Part shown: piece by piece, positions 1 through 23,614 of the stretch
Position numbering within the stretch: position 1 is the first letter of the stretch
How the letters are laid out: each line of letters starts with the position of its first letter
Origin: Bolinopsis microptera
Lineage: Eukaryota > Ctenophora > Tentaculata > Lobata > Bolinopsidae
Direction: 5' to 3'
Assembly (NCBI RefSeq): GCF_026151205.1
Contig: NC_087083.1
Coordinates: 3,486,536 to 3,550,535 of the forward strand
Length of the DNA: 64,000 nucleotides
Notes under the pieces: generated by a model
Database searches by the model: none
Told to the model about the DNA's origin: nothing
What the model saw: the letters and a program-made list of their open reading frames with translations, nothing else
Translations under genes and position numbers: made by a program

Positions 1-164
1 GATTCTAATGCTTCTACAGACCTACACAAGTGCAAGTAAGTAAGTAAATATTTCATGCTAGGCATGTGGCACCCATTACGGTAACCATCCATTGAGTTTT
101 TGCTTTTACCCTGTACTATAATTGCACAGCTCCCCATTTTAACCTCACACACGATTTCTCGAGC

Positions 165-322
165 ATTCGGCTGGGGTGAACCGGAGGCTGCATAGATCCT
201 ATGGGATCCTTAGCAGAACGTCGACGACGCTCACCTCACGACTAGGTAGACAGCGGGTTTCGAACTCGCAACCTTACGATTGCAAAGCTGGTGCTCTAAC
301 CAACTGCGTTACCTGGCCGTTG
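165..322 (-). mobile_element. tRNA-derived SINE fragment
   Basis: On the minus strand a tRNA-like head begins near 320. It has a box A-like segment (GCAGTTGGTTAGAGCA, near 293-308) and a strong box B (GAGTTCGAAACCC, near 254-266) at normal tRNA spacing, followed by about 90 bases of non-tRNA body. The segment AATCGTAAGGTTGC next to box B closely matches the tRNA-like part of the hammerhead array at 3493-5299, so the two heads are probably related. The anticodon arm does not pair, so this is not a working tRNA gene. It lies upstream of a WD40 exon, probably in an intron. No poly-A tail or target duplication was identified. Confidence 0.6.
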
Positions 323-535
323 AAGACTCCGTACAGGCAGCCCAGCATTGTATTATTGTACTGAATGAAGACGAGTTTTCTGGTTTTGAGGTCTCCTAGA
401 TACAGAGTAACAAAGATAGAGCTGGATATCAGACTTTGTTGAGTTGATAACATCTGATATGATGTGTCTCCTAATCTCACATTATCTGATTTGTTGGTTA
501 CAATGTTTTGAGGTCTCCTAAATAATTTATTTCAG

Positions 536-2462: not shown

Positions 2463-3492
2463 TCATTCTTTTTGATTATAATGTCAGGATAATTTACACC
2501 GTCGAAACTTCATTACATAATTATAAATAAGGAGATAATTTCAACGATTTCGATATTCTGCCTTTGAAAACTTTTTCCTTGTGTTAGGTAGGTATATCTG
2601 GTCGATAACCGACTGAATATGGCACTTTTACTCATTTAGGTTGGCATTAAATTCATTATATAATGCATTTAAATATCGTGGAAAGCAGAATATATTCGAA
2701 ATCACGAAGATGGCAAAATTCCTCACCTTTCGCACGTGCAAACTTTGAGCGGACGTTGCGTGCGCATACAATATTGAATCACCGGTAAATTTTTGCATAG
2801 TGGTATTTAATATATAGTTTGATAAGCATGCAAAGTTTCAGAAGATTTCAAAAGAACTTGGATCACAACGGGACCTCCAAAGTTGATTAAAAATCGTGAA
2901 AATAAAATTTTTAGTGATTTTAGCTATTTTAAATCAATTTGGGCGTGTCCCCACGTGTGCAACTTTTTCGATTTTCAACTTTAAAACTAGCCTATAACAC
3001 AATTTAGACCTTTAAAAAAGCAAATTTGAGCTCCAAAACCCCAAGGAATGGCCCTACACCAGAGAATACTATTCACAACTTTGTGTTTTTATAAAATTAT
3101 TCTTCAAAAAAGCACTAACTTCAATAGCAAATATCTTTATGAAGGAGCAAGGTAGGAAACTTTTCCGCTAGATTTTCGGAATTCTTAAACAATTATCTTA
3201 GGTAAAAATGTCCTCAGATTTTAAATAAAATTACTCCTTAATGGTGTAAAATCGATTTGAAAAGTTGTTACTTTGTCAAAAATTAAGTTTTAAAACACTT
3301 AATTGATGACGTCATCAAGTGATGATGATGACGTTAAATTATTTTTCAATACAATGTAAACTAAAGCTTAAACGATTATCTTTAAAACCTGTGGTTTCGA
3401 GATGACTGTATCGTATATACTTTTGGATCTACGGACCACCTAAATGTAGGCTACAATTGACTGCCAAAAGCGTCTATACATACATTATTATA
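2463..3492. other. Intronic sequence without recognised feature
   Basis: AT-rich DNA inside the last WD40 intron. No long reading frame, tandem repeat or recognisable element was seen. A direct TGATGATGATGACG run near 3320 is the only local simplicity. Confidence 0.5.
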
Positions 3493-3587
3493 TAAGGCCT
3501 TGGTGGCCCAGTGGCGCGGCGTAGAGCCAGTAATCGCAAGGTTGCTGGATCGATACCCGCCATCGGCAAAACCAACCTTGAAGATTT

Positions 3588-3645
3588 GAGCCATACTGAT
3601 GAGTCCTAATAGGACGAAACACTGTGTCTATGGATAAATATGCTC
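3588..3645 (+). ncRNA. Type I hammerhead ribozyme, unit 1
   Basis: The complete core is CTGATGA, stem II GTCC/GGAC with loop TAATA, then GAAA. Stem III is 3 bp (ACA/TGT) with loop CTG. Cleavage is predicted after the C of GTC at 3628. Stem I CCATA/TATGG is 5 bp, followed by an internal loop and GAG/CTC. The short stem III is known in animal type I hammerheads, some of which cleave best as dimers. Confidence 0.9.
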
Positions 3646-3865
3646 GCCTAGTTTACTAGCTTGAGCACTCTAGGAAATGAATAGATCTACCGTTCAGCTT
3701 AAATGCAAAGCTTCCTAACTTGGTAATGAGTTTTGTAGAGCACTCTGGTACCTATGTAATTCCTCATTATTAAGGCCTTGGTGGCCCAGTGGCGCGGCGT
3801 AGAGCCAGTAATCGCAAGGTTGCTGGATCGATACCGCCATCGGCAAAACCAACCCTTGATGATTT

Positions 3866-3923
3866 GAGCCATACTGATGAGTCCTAATAGGACGAAACAC
3901 TGTGTCTATGGATAAATATGCTC
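3866..3923 (+). ncRNA. Type I hammerhead ribozyme, unit 2
   Basis: Core, stems I-III and the distal GAG/CTC pairing are intact, identical to unit 1. Predicted cleavage is after GTC near 3906. Confidence 0.9.
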
Positions 3924-4142
3924 GCCTAGTTTACTAAGCTTGAGACTCTAGGAAATGAATAGATCTACGTTCAGCTTAAATGCAAAGCTCCTAACTTGTA
4001 ATGAGTTTGTAGAGCACTCTGGTACCTATGTAATTCCTTCATTATTAAGGCCTTGGTGGCCCAGTGGGCGCGGCGTAGAGCCAGTAATCGCCAAGGTGCT
4101 GGATCGATACCCGCCATCGGGCAAAACCAACCTTGATGATTT

Positions 4143-4199
4143 GAGCCATCTGATGAGTCCTAATAGGACGAAACACTGTGTCTATGGTTAAATATGCTC
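4143..4199 (+). ncRNA. Hammerhead ribozyme, unit 3 (stem I lesion)
   Basis: The catalytic core and stems II and III are intact. One A is missing between CCAT and CTGATGA, shortening stem I by one pair, and the 3' internal loop reads TTAAATATG instead of ATAAATATG. Confidence 0.8.
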
Positions 4200-4418
4200 G
4201 CCTAGTTTACTAAGCTTGAGCACTCTAGGAACTGAATAGATCTACCGTTCAGACTTAAATGCAAAGCTCCTAACTTGTAATGAGTTTGTAGAGCACTCTG
4301 GTACCTATGTAATTCCTTCATTATTAAGGCCTTGGTGGCCCAGTGGCGCGGCGTAGAGCCAGTAATCGCAAGGTTGCTGGATCGATACCCGCCATCGGGC
4401 AAACAACCTTGATGATTT

Positions 4419-4475
4419 GAGCCATACTGATGAGTCCTAATAGGACGAAACCTGTGTCTATGGATAAATATGCTC
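4419..4475 (+). ncRNA. Hammerhead ribozyme, unit 4 (stem III lesion)
   Basis: Core and stems I and II are intact. One A is lost just after GAAAC, so stem III reads GAAACCTGTGTC and pairs poorly. It is probably inactive if the deletion is real rather than a sequencing error. Confidence 0.75.
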
Positions 4476-4694
4476 GCCTAGTTTACTAAGCTTGAGCACT
4501 CTAGGAAATGAATGATCTACCGTTCAGCTTAAAGCAAAGGCTCCTAACTTGTAATGAGTTTGTAGAGCACTCTAGGTACCTATGTAATTCCTTCATTATT
4601 AAGGCCTTGGTGGCCCAGTGGCGCGGCGTAAGAGCCAGTAATCGCAAGGTTGCTGGATCGATACCCGCCATCGGCAAAACCACCTTGATGATTT

Positions 4695-4753
4695 GAGCCA
4701 TACTGATGAGTCCCTAATAGGACGAAACACTGTGTCTATGGATAAATATGCTC
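4695..4753 (+). ncRNA. Hammerhead ribozyme, unit 5
   Basis: Core and stems I and III are intact. Stem II has one extra C in its 5' strand (GTCCC), which can be absorbed in the loop. Confidence 0.8.
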
Positions 4754-4970
4754 GCCTAGTTTACTAAGCTTGAGCACTCTAGGAAATGAATAGATCTACC
4801 GTTCAGCTTAAATGCAAAGCTCCTAACTTGTAATGAGGTTTGTAGAGCACTCTGGTACCTATGTAATTCCTTCATTATTAAGGCCTTGGTGCCCATGGCG
4901 CGGCGTAGAGCCAGTAATCGCAAAGGTTGCTGATCGATACCCGCCATCGGCAAAACAACCTTGATGATTT

Positions 4971-5026
4971 GCCATACTGATGAGTCCTAATAGGACGAAA
5001 CACTGTGTCTATGGATAAATATGCTC
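4971..5026 (+). ncRNA. Hammerhead ribozyme, unit 6
   Basis: Core, stems II and III and the CCATA/TATGG pairing are intact. Two bases of the distal GAG strand of stem I are missing. Confidence 0.8.
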
Positions 5027-5248
5027 GCCTAGTTTACTAAGCTTGAGCACTCTAGGAAATGAATAGATCTACCGTTCAGCGTTAATGCAAAGCTCCTAAC
5101 TTGTAATGAGTTTGTTAGAGCACTCTGGTACCTATGTAATTCCTTCATTATTAAGGCCTTGGTGGCCCAGTGGCGCGGCGTAGAGCCAGTAATCGCAAGG
5201 TTGCTGGAATCGATACCCGCCATCGGCAAAACCAAACCTTGATGATTT

Positions 5249-5299
5249 GAGCCATACTGATGAGTCCTAATAGGACGAAACACTGTGTCTATGGATAAT
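5249..5299 (+). ncRNA. Hammerhead ribozyme, unit 7 (3' truncated)
   Basis: The core through the cleavage site and the inner stem I are intact. The element breaks off right after TATGGATA, so the 3' strand of the distal stem I is replaced by the neighbouring interspersed repeat. Confidence 0.8.
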
Positions 5300-5757
5300 T
5301 ATATACATATATATACTTCACGACAATCTGTTGTAAAAACAGGGGTTCCAGAAAACCACTTGCCGATACTGCTGAAACATGAAATTTTGTTTACAGTCGA
5401 TTTGGACAAGGTCGTAGACGCCCGCAAAGTTTCAGATCTCTTACTCAATTTTAACATGGTTTTTAAGGCACCTGAATATGGCGATTTTGTGGGTTTGTAC
5501 TTACTAATTTCCGTGTAACATGCTGGCTCGTATTTTGCGCAAATTTCTTAAAAACCTCCACATAACTATTTCTTTCTTATTCCTGTCATCTTTAACATTG
5601 AATTAGAATGTTTTTTACTTAAATATACCTGCTGAACAACTTTCGATGAGTCTTAATGCCTGGAAAACAATAAAGGGGATATAATAGTATAGGGGGTAAA
5701 TAGTATTGTGAATATAACGGCAACGGTAATGCTTGCCAGCATTGTGATTATATATGG
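5300..5757 (+). mobile_element. Interspersed repeat A, copy 1
   Basis: About 460 bases, from the TATACATATATATAC run to GCCAGCATTGTGATTATATA, recur in reverse orientation at 23157-23600 and partly at 17478-17581. No coding capacity is convincing. Part of the sequence reads as a short open frame (5285-5518), but its frame is not kept in the other copy. The family was not recognised. Confidence 0.8.
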
Positions 5758-7100: not shown

Positions 7101-7625
7101 AATAGCCTAGAAAAACTCTCGCTCGGGGTCGTATCGGATTCACCGCCATCTCAGGAAAAGGAAAAGGTTAAATTTTAAGGTTTCCCCGAATTTTAAAAAA
7201 GGGGACTTTTTTGAAGAGATGAAATTCAAATTTTTAATGTTAGAATTCCGGAAACGTTTCATACAAAACCAAAATAAAGCCAAAGGGAGTGGGCCAACCC
7301 CCAAAAAGAATTAGAGAAATCATGGGGTTTGAGCAAATCCAAATATGGGGGAATCCGGGTTGGGGGAAGAATGGTAAGGGAACCCTACGTTGTAGAAGCT
7401 AGTGATTAATCTAAGACTTAACGAAGTTTTGGAACATGAAAAGAGCCCGAAGGCCAAAAAGTCAAAAGGGGAAATTTTTATGGACTTCCTGGGGTGTAAA
7501 AAATAAAAATTTAATGGGTGTATTTTGGGGGAAATTTTGGAAGTTAATTTTAATAAATGGGGGGGTATTGATAAGGAGTTTGACCCCAAAGAAGCGGTAT
7601 TTTTTAAAAATTTTGGTGAAAAAGC

Positions 7626-8443
7626 ATTGATAAAATAATTTGTGTTTTAAGTGTATAATAAAATTTGTAGTAGATTTTGATTTGAGAGGAAAATAAAATG
7701 GGGAAAAGAAAGAAGGGATATTTAATTTGGTGAAAAATTTTTAAAGGTAAAGGTTTAAGTTTTGGGAAAAAAAAAAGATATAAATTAATAGTAATTGTTT
7801 TTTAAGGAATAGGGGGGTTTAAAATTTTGAAAAAGAAAAGGGAAATAAAAAGATAAAAAGGGGGTTTAAAAAAATTTTTTTTTTGGATTTTAAAGGGGAT
7901 TAAAGGTAGTAAAAAATTGGGAAAAAATAAATAATTAGGAATTGATGTAGGGTTTTAAAAAATTAAGTAAAGGGTTGTTATTTAAGAAGGGATTTGGGGG
8001 AAAAAATTTGGGGGGATTAAAAGATGTGTAAAAAGTATGGGAGTTTTTTGATATGTTAATTTTTAAATTTAAAAAAATTTTTGTTTGGGTAAAAAAAAAG
8101 GGTAAAAGGGGTGGGGAAAGAAAAGTTGGAAATTTGAATGATATTTTTAAAATGTTTTTAAAAATAGGGGTTTTTAAAAAAAAATAAAGGGTGTGAAGAT
8201 TTATGTTTTTAATGAGTTTTATGGGAAATTGTGTGTTTGATTTAAAATTTGTATTTGTGTTAAGTGGGAAATTTGGATTTAATAAAAAGGGGTTTTTTTA
8301 AAAATAGGGTAAGTAGTTTTTGGGGTTTGGGGAATTTTGTAAGATAATGAATTTATTAGTGTGATAAAAATTTTTGGGGGGTTTTTAAGGGGTAAAAGGA
8401 AAATTGTTAAAAGATTAAAAATAGTTAAATAAAAGAAGGTTTT
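7626..8443. other. 818-nt cytosine-free tract
   Basis: No C occurs on the plus strand between the C at 7625 and the C at 8444. The tract is made of A, T and G with many homopolymers of three to nine bases. Cytosines thin out gradually from about 7040 and return abruptly at 8444, in the middle of a reverse-transcriptase reading frame. This pattern is easiest to explain as a low-quality read tail in the assembly. A biological cause such as strand-specific deamination is possible but unsupported. Confidence 0.85.
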
Positions 8444-9780
8444 CTTGGCTTTGTAGACTATGCAAAGGCTTTTGACACTGTTTGTAGGGAAGCGCTACTC
8501 TACAAACATTGGAAAACTAGGAGTTCAAGGGGCGATTTTTCAATTGTATGGAACACATGTACACCCATTCATCTGCAAAAACTAAAACCTCTCCCACAAG
8601 CCTCTTGGAAGATGTACGTCCTCTGTGGAACTGAACAAGGGCACCCCAGTGTCCCCGGAACTGTTCAAATTCTTCGTACATGCCCCTCCCGAAAGACTGA
8701 ACGAGCTAGATATCATCGAAGTGCCCATCATTTAACTCCATCAGGTGACACATCTTGCTCTGGGCTGATGGACTTAAGTACTTCTGGCTTGGATTCCTGA
8801 AGCCTACATAATAATGCGCCTCTGTTCTGTACCGCCCTACTGTCAGGAGTGGGGCCTAGTGGTCAACATGTCTAAAACCGCTATCATGGTGTTCAACCGC
8901 GCTGGTCGTATACTCAAAGACAGCAAGATCTTGGCTTTTGGTTTAACACCGATCGACTCAGTTCGTGAGTACACGTACCTAGGAATGACACAGGACGCTA
9001 CCCTTTGGCGATAGAGCTATCATCCCAAGTGTATAACTACTGGGAAAGATTAGATAAAATGGAGAAAGCTGGATCTAACAGTCTTGTGCGACATGCCTTC
9101 AAAGAGCAACGCAGCCTCAGTCTTTCTTGGAATACCAACATCGAGACTGCACGGTCGGTTCTAAACCAACCCAATGGACATCATCTAAAACTCTCACCTT
9201 CACAAACCAAAGAAGCGATGCGTTCCAACTTCAGGCAGATATGGAACACTGAGAGATGGAACAACAAGAAACTAACGTTCTACAACACCATAAAGATGAG
9301 TTTTGGCTATGAGCAGTACCTCAATATGAATCTGTCGCACGCTGAATCCAAAAGCTGGCTCAATTCAGATCAAGCTCACACAATTTCAATATTGAGACAG
9401 GACGTCATGGAACCCACAAAAGAAACCAGATCGTACCTCGGATATGTAAAGCTTGCTCAACAGAGGACATGGACATGCTCGAAAATTTCGCAGAAATGCC
9501 ATTCTTCGACCCCATCATCGAAGATGAGGTACACGTCCTCCGGACCTGCTCCCTGTATGAAGACTACCGACACCGCTTTAGTCAGAGAGCCAAAACCTGT
9601 CTTTTCGCTAACTTAGAGGGGCTATTCACAGATGCCAGCCTCATAAGAGAGACAGCGAGGTTCTTGGTGAGAGCAAACAACAGGCGTTTCCCGAAGAAGG
9701 AAGTCACTAAGAAGGATCTGCTGAAGTCCAGCTGTAAAGTCCCCGCTACACCTCAACAGAACTCCTCTGCGGACACGTGA
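8444..9780 (+). pseudogene. Non-LTR retrotransposon (LINE) 3' fragment
   Basis: Reverse-transcriptase motifs can be read across several frameshifts: FLGFVDYAKAFDTV (motif A, near 8443-8482), GTEQGHP (near 8629), VNMSKTAIMVFNR (near 8861-8900) and VREYTYLGM (near 8963). A C-terminal C-x2-C / H-x4-C type region (ICKAC ... DEVHVLRTC, 9450-9550) is typical of many LINE tails. Stops and shifts at several points make it inactive. It starts abruptly at the edge of the C-free tract. Such an enzyme could in principle mobilise SINEs in trans, but this copy cannot. Confidence 0.75.
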
Positions 9781-18232: not shown

Positions 18233-18487
18233 GTGAGTATTTACGCTAGTTGTTTAGTGGGTATTCTTTCCAACGATTTCAGAATATGTTGTGGATTGTT
18301 GACAAGATTATTCTTAACTGACACAAAACCGTTGCTTTTAGAGTTTAAAACTTTGTCTTGACAGCTAATTTAATTAGTTAATCAACTTCAAGGCATATCA
18401 GATATGAAAGTTTACGTGTCTAGGTGGCTGAAATCTCAACCTAATTTACCAGCAAGCAATTAATTTCTCAGAAAATAATTTAAACAG

Positions 18488-21400
18488 GTAACGCAAAGTT
18501 TTACCTGATCAACGGAGAGGGTGCACAAGCAACGAATGGACTTGGTGTCTTGTGGGTCCAGAAGGGCCAACTCTCGGGCCATGTTTTATTTGAAGGAAAC
18601 AAAGGATTCGATCAAGAGTGTCTGCCTAACCACATATGCCAAATGATGGGGTACCAGTTTGCAATAAGTTGGTTCTCAGATCTAAAATCCGTTCTTGACA
18701 CCAAGCGAAAGTCTATGCATGCATTTACATTCGACGATATTTTCTGTCCAGCAGATAACAACGTAACTGGTAATGCGACGTTTAAAATAAAAAAGATAAA
18801 GGAATTAACAGCTTTTTCTTCAAATATACCATCAGCCGCTGTCCTCTTCTGCGGTCCTTTTAAAGGCACTTGTCCAATCGTGGAGCGATATAATTTCCTT
18901 AAGAGAGTTTGTATTGAGGAATTGGGCTCCTTAGTATTTCAATGTCACCACTCTGACAAGCTTTACATAGCCAGACCCGGGTACCACCACTCTACATTTA
19001 ACACCGTCTGCGACAACGACCCTCATTTCTATCAAAGCTGTGGTATCAGAAATTCACTGACCTCATCAAACTCTGCTGCAATTTGTGACGAGTACGTCTG
19101 CGAAGTGAAGAAAAATACCGTCTTCCAGACGAAAGGTGTTATGTCTACCGTCACAGTTTCTTCAGCGATATTGTGCCAATTGCAATTAGACCCAGCATTT
19201 GACAATTTGCTCTATTCACAAAGCTGCTCCAATTTACCGGACAACATTTGTTCAGCAGAAAATGAAGAGGAAGATGTAGCTCATACATCTTTAACTTTAA
19301 GAAGCGGACTAACAGTGGGCAAGTCCTCAGTTTGCAATGGACGCTGTGATGGACGTAGTTGTGAGGACGAGGCTTTCTGTGGTGGCTATCTGTACGGTTT
19401 GTACTGCATTGGCTGGAAACAAAGACTCAATTACATCAAACCAAGTGAAGTGTGCGATGGGTACTCGACGTACCTGTGTCCAGATGGTGAGGACGAAAGG
19501 AACTGTCCAGAACAAGACTCCTTACCAAGGCACGAAAAATGTAGAAGGTCCACCTTTAGTTCATTCACAGGAAGACAAACTTCTTCGGTGATCCCAATTA
19601 TCAATATTACAAGGTGTGGCGCTCCATTCAGCTTTGAACTAATTGAAGTATTAGTTGACCCTGTATCAATCTGTGATAACTTTCTAGATCAAACCAACTG
19701 TACAGACCAGAGCCGTTCAACACTAACCTGTTATATCAACGGCTATCTTTCAACCATATCCAAATTTTTTGTGTGTCATGGTCAAGAGGAGGTTCCAACA
19801 TTATGTGACAACGGAATAGACCAGGTCTGTGTCAAGGTATCCCTCACCTGTGAGGTACATAAACACCAACTGTGTGACGAAATTGAAGATTGTCTGAGCG
19901 GGGCTGATGAAAACATAGCAATCTGTCGCTCCATGACAAAGAGGGTTTGTCACAGAGCTTACAAGCCCGACCAGGCATTACAAATTCCCATTGCATGGCT
20001 AAGGGATGGGGTTGAGGACTGTTTAGATGCAATCGACGAGGAGGACGTGTGGAAAACTTGTGGCATTGGTTCAACAAAACGATTCGTAGTGTCAATAGAT
20101 GAAACGTGCGAGGAGGTGTTTCTTTGTAAACATGATCAAGCAGCCTTCGTAGAATTCAAAAATATATGTGATGGGATTGATACGTCATGTGGTATTGAAA
20201 CGAATATATGTGCGAAGTCGCATAAGATCAATCCTACTTTTGACAGTGTACTGACTGTGCAGAAATCAGGTGGAGAATTGAAAACTTTGATGTATTGCTT
20301 GCCTGGTCTCGAGAGTCTGCAGGAAATAGCAAATCGTTGCGTTATCAATGAAGTTAATCTTTCGGGACTTGATGTCTTCGGAGTTCAATCCATTTTGACA
20401 ATTATCCGCCCTAACGCAATAGTTAACTGTGATCATACCTTTGGAGATATTTACGTGACTCTGAGTTGTGCAGGGTATTGTGAAGACTCAGTTTGCCCTT
20501 TGCAAAAAAAGATCCAATACAATTCTTGTCCTCAGCAACACCAAAATAGAATATACACAATTGCTGATAATAATTTCCTTTCGTTCGTGACAAAAATAGG
20601 TAATAAGTCGTACAGAAATGACTATTTTCGATGCGACAACGGTGTTTGCTTAAACTATGAACAAGTTTGCAACGTGGTCGATGACTGTGGGGATGGTTCT
20701 GACGAAATACTCTGTACTAATGTGTTTTTGTGTGATTCCAAAGACCAACTGGTCCCGATCACTGAAAAGTGTAATGGAAATATTGACTGCATGGATTTCT
20801 CAGACGAGTGTAACTTACACTGTGGCAAACAAATATTACAAAGCATTTTTCTAAAGATTTTGAGCTGGAATCTAGCTGTGCTAGCCATATTCCTTAACTT
20901 GATTTCACTCTATCGAACTCTAACCGATTTCAACAAAGAAATGTCAAAAGTGGCTATGAACAATAAGATGCTGATACTTCTCATAAATCTCGGTGATCTG
21001 CTGATCGGAGTGTATTTGATCTATATAGCAATAATGGACACAATAGTTTATGGGAGTGGATACTGCTCCGAACATATAAATTGGCTGTCTAGCGCTCATT
21101 GTAACATAATAGGCGTCATCAGTACGATTGGTTATGAAATGTCTCTTGTTTCCATGACAATTCTTGCCGTAACTAGGTTGGGGGTGATAAAAGATAAGAC
21201 TCGGATCAGCGAACGATTTACAAGAAGAGTCCTTTTCAAAATTAGTCTAGGTGCACTAATTATCGTCATGATTTGTATTACTATTGCAGTAATTCCTCTG
21301 GTGCCTCAATTTGAAGACTTCTTTGTCAATGGCATGACATACAGACCCTCAGTAAGACTCTTTATCGGAGCTCCCGATAAACAAATCCATCTCAGCATCC

Positions 21401-22128
21401 TACAGGAGTACTATGGCAAAATTAAGGGCAAAAATCTTAAATGGAGAGTGATAAATGATCTTGTTGATGGTATGTTTTCTAGTGATTATGGAGGTGATGT
21501 ACTTGGTCGAAAGAAGATTGAATTTTACGGGAATGAAGGAGTTTGTCTATTCAAGTTTTTTGTTAAAGCAGACGATCCTCAACGAATTTATGCTTGGGGC
21601 ATCCTATCATTAAACATGGTTTGCTTTTTAGTAATTTCAGTCTGCTACATTTTCATCGACAATAGAACCAGAACCACGTCAAAAGTGCTTACCCAGGGTA
21701 AAACACATACAGGTCATGAAGTAAGGAAAAGGAACAGAAGATTGCAGCGAAAAATATCGCTGATCATAGCAACGGATTTTCTTTGTTGGTTACCAGTTAC
21801 CATAGTTTCCTGTCTCCACTCGGGAGCAGTCATCGACGCTACACCATACTACTCTCTTATCTCCATAGTATTTTTACCTATCAACTCTGTAATCAACCCT
21901 ATTTTGTACAACGATTTCTCCACAACTTTATTAGAAAAAGTCAAAGAAAAATCGAAACCAGTTTTTGCTAAGAAGTGGAGAAATAAGAAAGTTTCCCCTG
22001 AACAATTTAACACTACCTGTAATTGTATCAATAAAAATGAGTGTCGCCATGATCAAGTCCAAATGATTGAGATGAAAGTTTTAAAAGCAAAAGAAAATGA
22101 TTTAACAAAGATCAGTATCGCCAAGTGA
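18488..22128 (+). CDS. Rhodopsin-family GPCR with LDLa-rich ectodomain (LGR/GRL101-like, no LRRs seen)
   Basis: One large exon encodes residues 18-1230 of a surface receptor. The first ~60 residues (LINGEGAQA ... HVLFEGNKGF ... ICQMMGY) loosely resemble a scavenger-receptor Cys-rich fold. The long ectodomain has several Cys-rich LDL-receptor class A modules. The clearest is CDNGVCLNYEQVCNVVDDCG followed by DGSDEILC (about residues 730-760). Weaker ones end PDGEDERNC, EDCLSGADENIAIC and MDFSDEC. Seven TM helices span about 805-1140. TM3 ends in AVTRL instead of DRY, TM6 reads TDFLCWLP and TM7 reads INSVINPILY, all like leucine-rich-repeat GPCRs. Extracellular loop 2 is unusually long. LGR and GRL101 receptors normally carry LRRs between LDLa and 7TM, and none are visible here. 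Ligand unknown. Confidence 0.88.
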
Positions 22129-23156: not shown

Positions 23157-23600
23157 TATTATATCACAATGCTGGCAAGCATTACCGTTGCCGTTATATT
23201 CACAATACTATTTGCCCCCTATACTATTAGTATTATATCCCCTTTATTGTTTTCCAGGCATTAAGACTCATCGAAAGTAGTTCAGCAGGTATATTTAGGT
23301 AAAAAACATTCTAATTCAATGTTAAAGATGTCAGGAATAAGAAATAGTTATGTGGAGGTTTTAAAGAAATTTGCGCAAAATACGCGCCAGCATGTTATAC
23401 GAAATTAGGTTAAAAAACCAAAATCGCCATATTCAGGTGCCTTAAAAACCATGTGAAAATTGAGTTAGAGATCTGAAACTTTACAGGGCGTCTAGACGTT
23501 GACCAAATCGACTGTAAAAAAATGTCGTGTTTCAGGAGTATCGGGAAATGGGTTTTCTGGAACCCCTGTTTTACGATAGATTGTCGTGATACATACATAC
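23157..23600 (-). mobile_element. Interspersed repeat A, copy 2
   Basis: This is the reverse complement of 5300-5757 over its full length, with scattered differences. It ends in a CATACATACATATATAT run directly before a mariner-type MITE. Confidence 0.8.
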
Positions 23601-23614
23601 ATATATATAATATA

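Follow-up and report, generated by a model that had tools for sequence, protein, structure and literature searches.

How is a short, apparently non-coding repeat that carries a hammerhead ribozyme copied and spread through the genome of a ctenophore? The question is raised by a tandem array at 3487-5302 (+) of a 64,000-nucleotide (nt) stretch of Bolinopsis microptera DNA (RefSeq assembly GCF_026151205.1, contig NC_087083.1, forward-strand positions 3,486,536 to 3,550,535), hereafter the window, to which positions refer unless a contig is named. We consider it probable that the array belongs to a non-autonomous retrotransposon of the metazoan-retrozyme kind, predicted to cut its own RNA, which would be copied from the loop of the ribozyme's stem I with nicked (TA)n DNA as primer. 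The case is built from the anatomy of the repeat unit, its dispersal, the pattern of its 3' and 5' ends, a (TA)n target, target sites that lack the array, and a Penelope-like partner element with a GIY-YIG domain and the same target.

Anatomy, dispersal and insertion ends

The array comprises six whole 277-nt units and a partial seventh that breaks off shortly 3' of its hammerhead, or 6.5 copies (Tandem Repeats Finder: 6.6 copies of a 276-nt unit with 95% matches over the same interval). This revises the count of seven units of about 278 bp given in a preliminary description of this DNA, whose recognition of a tandem array stands. In every unit a head with a box A and a box B of the kind that serves RNA polymerase III (Pol III) is followed by a type I hammerhead and then by about 130 nt of tail, and the GC content of the unit is 0.45. 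The units differ by 39 one-base indels and 4 substitutions over 1809 nt; as 28 of the 39 indels are of homopolymer type, we set aside a biological origin for them and read them as probable uncorrected long-read error within a nearly homogeneous array. The longest frame of the consensus unit, 69 amino acids, found no copies when used as a query against protein predictions, and the element is taken as non-coding.

The hammerhead reads as first described, with its core, 4-bp stem II, 3-bp stem III, GTC, 5-bp stem I and GAG/CTC helix, and the predicted cleavage C of the first unit lies at 3628 as claimed. In a scan of the 64-kb window against 4227 Rfam families, the covariance model RF00163 (Hammerhead_1) was placed on all seven units on the + strand, six of them above its gathering cut-off of 34 bits (best match 41.1 bits, E 4.7e-7). 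The check by covariance model that had been proposed succeeds for all but the fourth hammerhead, which carries a 1-nt deletion in stem III. No further match at the cut-off was found in the window beyond the hammerheads of the array.

Copies elsewhere in the genome, which the preliminary description had proposed as a check, are numerous. A search of 264.65 Mb in 232 contigs returned at least 69 matches to the ribozyme model at E up to 0.001 (at least 67 over the cut-off) and at least 85 matches to the DNA of a single unit, and the exact 25-nt core occurs 73 times (reversed control, 0). Reading one representative per match cluster gave 52 loci on contigs C1-C13 and C70, of which 49 count as independent insertions once three pairs with identical flanks and 5' end are merged; C6:18073485 and C6:18075889 have their 3' flank in common and may be a single event. 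The exact core also occurs outside the 52 loci, at C3:11570494, C4:2030980, C6:9062749, C12:8958982 and C13:5797621. The base pairs of the hammerhead hardly vary among copies, and divergence is lower in the hammerhead than in the remaining unit at 36 of 37 loci (means 1.1% and 5.1%), a paired test within a set of 40 of the 52 loci (the 12 found only by the ribozyme model were dropped) in which subfamily changes held in common make the loci less than independent.

The insertions share one end. In 44 of the 49 the 3' end lies at unit position 142-151, 7-16 nt past the predicted cut (after position 135), and the same end is found in 35 of the 40 loci recovered without the ribozyme model. The 5' ends are scattered over unit positions 15 to 275, and insertion lengths run from 51 to 1816 nt, with 28 of the 49 no longer than one unit and 21 longer. 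One 3' end combined with ragged 5' ends implies reverse transcription starting at a fixed point in the RNA. Since the copies continue past the predicted cut, an RNA that stopped there would not have been the template, whereas a circle or an uncut multimer would suit. A hammerhead-bearing mobile family resembling short interspersed elements (SINEs) or retrozymes is upheld, with the changes that its insertions do not end where the ribozyme cuts and that they target (TA)n, a preference absent from the preliminary description. Four insertions have their 5' ends at positions 138-141 after one or two turns, which is compatible with a circular template. Folded as a circle, the unit is predicted to reach -78.4 kcal/mol, compared with a shuffle mean of -65.0 (z -2.8; none of 200 shuffles as stable), with 65% of its bases paired compared with 60% in shuffles.

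The sites of insertion are also alike. Three or more TA repeats adjoin the 5' end in 38 of 49 insertions, the 3' end in 37 of 44 and both ends in 27 of 44, compared with 98 of 2850 control stretches, the 3' count being slightly favoured by its inclusion of the ATA at the element's end. In the window, the array interrupts the TA tract of a dispersed host repeat, and this target site occurs without an array in 115 copies in the genome, one of them within a retrieved locus (reversed-pattern control, 0). The same host repeat holds other members of the family at C13:674506, C4:15000596 and C11:9594695, whose differing 5' ends mark them as separate insertions. At a further locus, L096 (C9:10730286), two copies of the element have their 3' ends turned towards each other, with two TA tracts and about 50 nt in between; both may stem from a single event primed on both strands.

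Transcription of the element

Box A and box B were called by comparison with the consensus forms of the Pol III boxes. Both had been claimed for every unit; box A is exact in six of the seven and box B in five, the rest being altered. The head had also been called tRNA-like, a description weaker than first put, which draws on its two boxes and on its likeness to the head of another SINE. The identification of the head as a tRNA is rejected, since ARAGORN called no tRNA in the array or in 14 further loci, and Rfam called none at E up to 10 in 3300-5500 and none at E up to 3 in four further loci. The other SINE is of tRNA type, lies at 1-325 (-) of the window without a hammerhead, and has at least 40 family matches among the best 40 of 678 candidates. 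Its head and that of the array are identical at 24 of 29 nt, a likeness reached in none of 2000 shuffles, or in one of 2000 with softer gaps.

Transcription by Pol III is plausible on these features. It is also possible, if doubtful, that a retrozyme-type element is transcribed by read-through from neighbouring promoters and that the boxes are functionless relics. The likeness to the abundant SINE at 1-325 agrees with such a history, because boxes so placed may be inherited, as does the unexceptional conservation of the boxes: with the variable position 56 masked, box B ranks second and box A tenth among 85, which counts against promoter use. Other head positions are nearly as constant, and the constancy of the boxes was judged too weak to establish transcription by Pol III. 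The relic explanation is less easily reconciled with the absence of any mismatch in 270 cells at the tested positions of box B (a mask that omits the variable box B position 56), or with the chance frequency of a loose box pair, which arose 24 times in 200 simulated 64-kb windows. The consensus unit also lacks a T4 run, as do 31% of shuffles.

Proposed priming point and likely copying machinery

The junctions point to where copying would begin. At 33 of 35 internal junctions (19 loci), the sequence runs from TATGG through ATAAATAT to GCTC, whereas the last TATGG of an insertion is followed by ATATA in 27 of 43 cases and by ATAAAT in one. Because the sequence after TATGG is (TA)n-like at insertion ends and ATAAATAT internally, the 3' flank would derive from the target and not from the RNA. 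Within the hammerhead, AUAAAUAU lies between UAUGG and the distal GCUC, where it makes up the unpaired 3' part of stem I; a nicked (AT)4 end can form 7 of 8 pairs with it, and ATAAATAT likewise pairs 7/8 with (TA)n. We infer that target DNA, nicked in (TA)n, may anneal to the AU-rich stem-I loop of the hammerhead and prime on it. One two-turn insertion, L020 (C2:15529235), has ATATATAT in place of ATAAATAT as its internal spacer and may for that reason represent two insertion events in the same TA tract.

A candidate for the enzyme shares this target. The genome holds at least 147 GIY-YIG matches among the best 150 of 524 candidates scored, and PF01541 (GIY-YIG) is present in frames at loci L030, L064 and L084. 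Three of the GIY-YIG matches are found no more than 1 kb from element loci. All three have 3' ends that lead into (TA)n, and two of them are cut short at the 5' side in (TA)n. In one GIY-YIG Penelope-like family, 114 of the 119 exact 3' ends in the genome lead directly into ATATATAT. The 3' end of this partner lies within 150 nt of 5 of the 49 element loci and of none of 200 control stretches, although one of the queries behind that count was drawn from L030, which is one of the five loci. The 3' ends of element and partner face one another over a single TA tract at L030 and L093. Reverse-transcriptase-like motifs, recognised by eye, are present in P0126, a 65%-identical relative in which Pfam RVT_1 finds no match; in P0166, a 25% identical relative, RVT_1 does match beside GIY-YIG. 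A second GIY-YIG family (L105-L108), with frames of about 924 amino acids and many near-identical copies, is distinct from the (TA)n-targeting one and was set aside as partner, with no TA tract in the 3' stretch read.

It is likely, judging from the common target, that the GIY-YIG Penelope-like element supplies the machinery that copies the ribozyme RNA. Penelope-like elements have been put forward as strong candidates for the mobilisation of animal retrozymes, with no link demonstrated (PMC7229834), and the enzyme of a Penelope-like element of Anolis starts internally, prefers AT-rich DNA and extends both strands (PMC11167929). In the course of events that we propose, Pol III would start near the AAGG of a head and, because the consensus unit has no T4 terminator, read on through the array. 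The hammerheads would cut after GTC and a host ligase would close 277-nt circles, and either a circle or an uncut multimer could serve as template. The Penelope-like enzyme would nick (TA)n, and the (AT)n end, pairing at 7 of 8 positions with the loop, would prime a copy that begins at ...UAUGG. An early stop would leave 5'-truncated copies, further rounds would yield one-turn, two-turn and 6.5-unit insertions, and the far end of the copy would join the TA tract.

More ambitiously, the hammerhead may have two jobs, its core releasing the RNA unit and its loop acting as a priming strip for (TA)n, with the Penelope-like element copying and Pol III driving expression; that element would sometimes use each strand of a single TA tract, one serving its own RNA and the other the ribozyme RNA, as the arrangement at L030 and L093 suggests. 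All of these parts holding jointly is a tentative proposition, and we would sooner doubt it than assume it.

The element might instead be an ordinary SINE tailed by (TA)n, in which case linear transcripts running into flanking (TA)n would be copied by a (TA)n-targeting retrotransposon, arrays would arise from uncut multimers and the hammerhead would be a passenger or trimmer. Insertions that extend beyond the cut site agree with this, as does the fact that the window array begins, on its left, close to where transcription is predicted to start, and the Anolis enzyme acts in vitro independently of hammerhead cleavage, hammerhead mutants inserting normally (PMC11167929). We nevertheless regard such an origin as unlikely, given that all but one of the loci compared show less divergence in the hammerhead than elsewhere in the unit, that a circle gives a simple account of the insertions whose 5' ends fall at the loop after one or two complete turns, and that ATAAATAT rather than (TA)n is kept at nearly every internal junction. 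An alternative in which unequal crossing-over spread and amplified a hammerhead-bearing satellite purely as DNA suits the tandem and nearly homogeneous units and is highly improbable in the face of dispersed loci that have a target and a 3' end in common and scattered 5' ends, of the junctions, of the many insertions no longer than one unit and of the 115 target sites without an array.

Several observations weigh against a retrozyme-type element primed by (TA)n at the stem-I loop. Five of the 49 insertions end elsewhere in the unit (positions 48, 50, 132, 137 and 268), and the TA run is missing on the 3' side in 7 of 44. As to a target-site duplication at the window array, the 8-nt matches there are not significant (P 0.10 with local composition), and (TA)n hides duplications. 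An isolated 58-nt ribozyme piece is predicted to favour another fold (-10.1 compared with -4.3 kcal/mol for the hammerhead, tertiary contacts being left out of the model), and the minimum-energy fold of the circular unit lacks a complete hammerhead. With respect to the partner, no reverse-transcriptase match lies near the GIY-YIG matches among the best 150 of 6502 reverse-transcriptase candidates, and a common target is no proof of a common enzyme. Copying independent of cleavage would, moreover, deprive the ribozyme of a shown role.

Features of the window and relation to known elements

The features of the array are collected in Table 1. Elsewhere in the window, about 1 kb at 7440-8440 has 1.5% C on the + strand (20% window-wide); it is adjoined by stop-broken frames with a weak reverse-transcriptase match at 8778-9011 (E 0.041). 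An uninterrupted frame of 1214 amino acids at 18484-22128 (+) encodes a receptor with LDLa and seven-transmembrane domains, with 749 relatives in one search; among the 120 listed, all that carry an organism name come from the ctenophores Mnemiopsis leidyi and Bolinopsis microptera.

Table 1. Positions of the array, its parts and its target in the window.
Feature	Position	Strand	Remarks
Tandem array	3487..5302	+	unit starts 3494, 3772, 4047, 4326, 4601, 4880, 5153
Box A TGGCCCAGTGG, unit 1	3504..3514	+	exact also at 3782, 4057, 4336, 4611, 5163; altered in unit 6
Box B GGATCGATACC, unit 1	3547..3557	+	exact also at 3825, 4101, 4379, 4655; indel-altered in units 6 and 7
Hammerhead 1, type I	3589..3635	+	RF00163 35.9 bits; predicted cut after 3628
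Hammerhead 2, type I	3867..3913	+	RF00163 35.9 bits; predicted cut after 3906
Hammerhead 3, type I	4144..4189	+	RF00163 38.3 bits; predicted cut after 4182
Hammerhead 4, type I, 1-nt deletion in stem III	4420..4465	+	RF00163 29.2 bits, below cut-off; predicted cut after 4458
Hammerhead 5, type I	4696..4743	+	RF00163 41.1 bits; predicted cut after 4736
Hammerhead 6, type I	4971..5015	+	RF00163 34.1 bits; predicted cut after 5009
Hammerhead 7, type I	5250..5296	+	RF00163 35.9 bits; predicted cut after 5289; array end 8-13 nt beyond
Unit 4 tail, example of the stretch between a hammerhead and the following head	4471..4600	+	used as tail query
Left remnant, TA-rich target tract	3475..3493	+	junction reading
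Right remnant, TA-rich target tract	5298..5316	+	junction reading
Dispersed host repeat, right part; array sits in its TA tract	5300..5748	+	89% to 23163-23607, other strand

Metazoan non-LTR (long terminal repeat) retrozymes are described, in the portions of the sources available, as having repeat units of 170-400 nt in tandem, less than 50% GC and a type I hammerhead (Cervera and de la Pena 2020, PMC7229834; review PMC7761336). The present element resembles them in its type I hammerhead in every repeat, its tandem short units (277 nt, 45% GC, within the range of about 150-450 nt and below 50%), its predicted well-paired circle, and its dispersed, mobile and non-coding copies, in which no LTR was seen. 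It differs in its Pol III-type boxes, promoters seeming absent from metazoan retrozymes in the accessible part of the review (PMC7761336), and in its (TA)n target and mapped start, where the same part of that review gives no motif pointing to a partner. It also differs in scale and host, with about 50 loci in a ctenophore compared with the thousands of motifs given for Acropora and Mytilus in the portions seen. Of the marks of a tRNA-derived SINE it has box A and box B and a fixed 3' end with 5' truncation, and it lacks a recognisable tRNA head. On its sequence features, the element would work like a metazoan retrozyme, set apart by its (TA)n target, mapped start point and promoter boxes.

The schistosome elements Sm-alpha and Sj-alpha likewise combine a hammerhead and a tRNA-type part in one short retroposon (PMC2770079, PMC4918200, as far as these were available), and the schistosome repeats are noted as carrying a tRNA in the accessible part of PMC4918200. 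There tRNAscan-SE recognises tRNA-Gln, according to those excerpts, whereas no tool calls a tRNA here, and the same excerpts make no mention of (TA)n targeting. The Anolis element PAc (PMC11167929) shares tandem copies, a hammerhead, an internal start of reverse transcription downstream of the cut and AT-rich targets. It differs from the present element, in which no coding capacity was seen, and its RNA start shows no homology to the DNA that is cut, whereas the loop here matches (TA)n at 7 of 8 positions.

Relatives outside this genome were sought with a 33-nt pattern, which had no match in a genome contig collection, and with three other patterns, which likewise had none. A viral contig (L001, 7214-7238) with the same 25-nt core reads as a permuted hammerhead below the Rfam cut-off and was judged unrelated. 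A full-text literature search found no report of hammerheads in ctenophores, Mnemiopsis included, within a coverage that omits most subscription papers; the terms 'ctenophor' and 'Mnemiopsis' do not occur in the main text of a 2011 survey (PMC3088659), and full-text literature combining hammerhead retrozymes with microsatellites yielded plant work only.

In the accessible part of the review PMC7761336, the transcription of animal retrozymes and the enzyme that mobilises them are both presented as open questions. The family described here makes both testable, through its internal Pol III-type boxes, a priming point that has been mapped and a partner sharing its (TA)n target, and it extends the retrozyme kind to a ctenophore. 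If the hammerhead does have the two jobs proposed above, the family would represent, beyond schistosomes, a retrozyme that carries its own promoter and whose mode of integration has been mapped, in a lineage that diverged close to the root of the animals.
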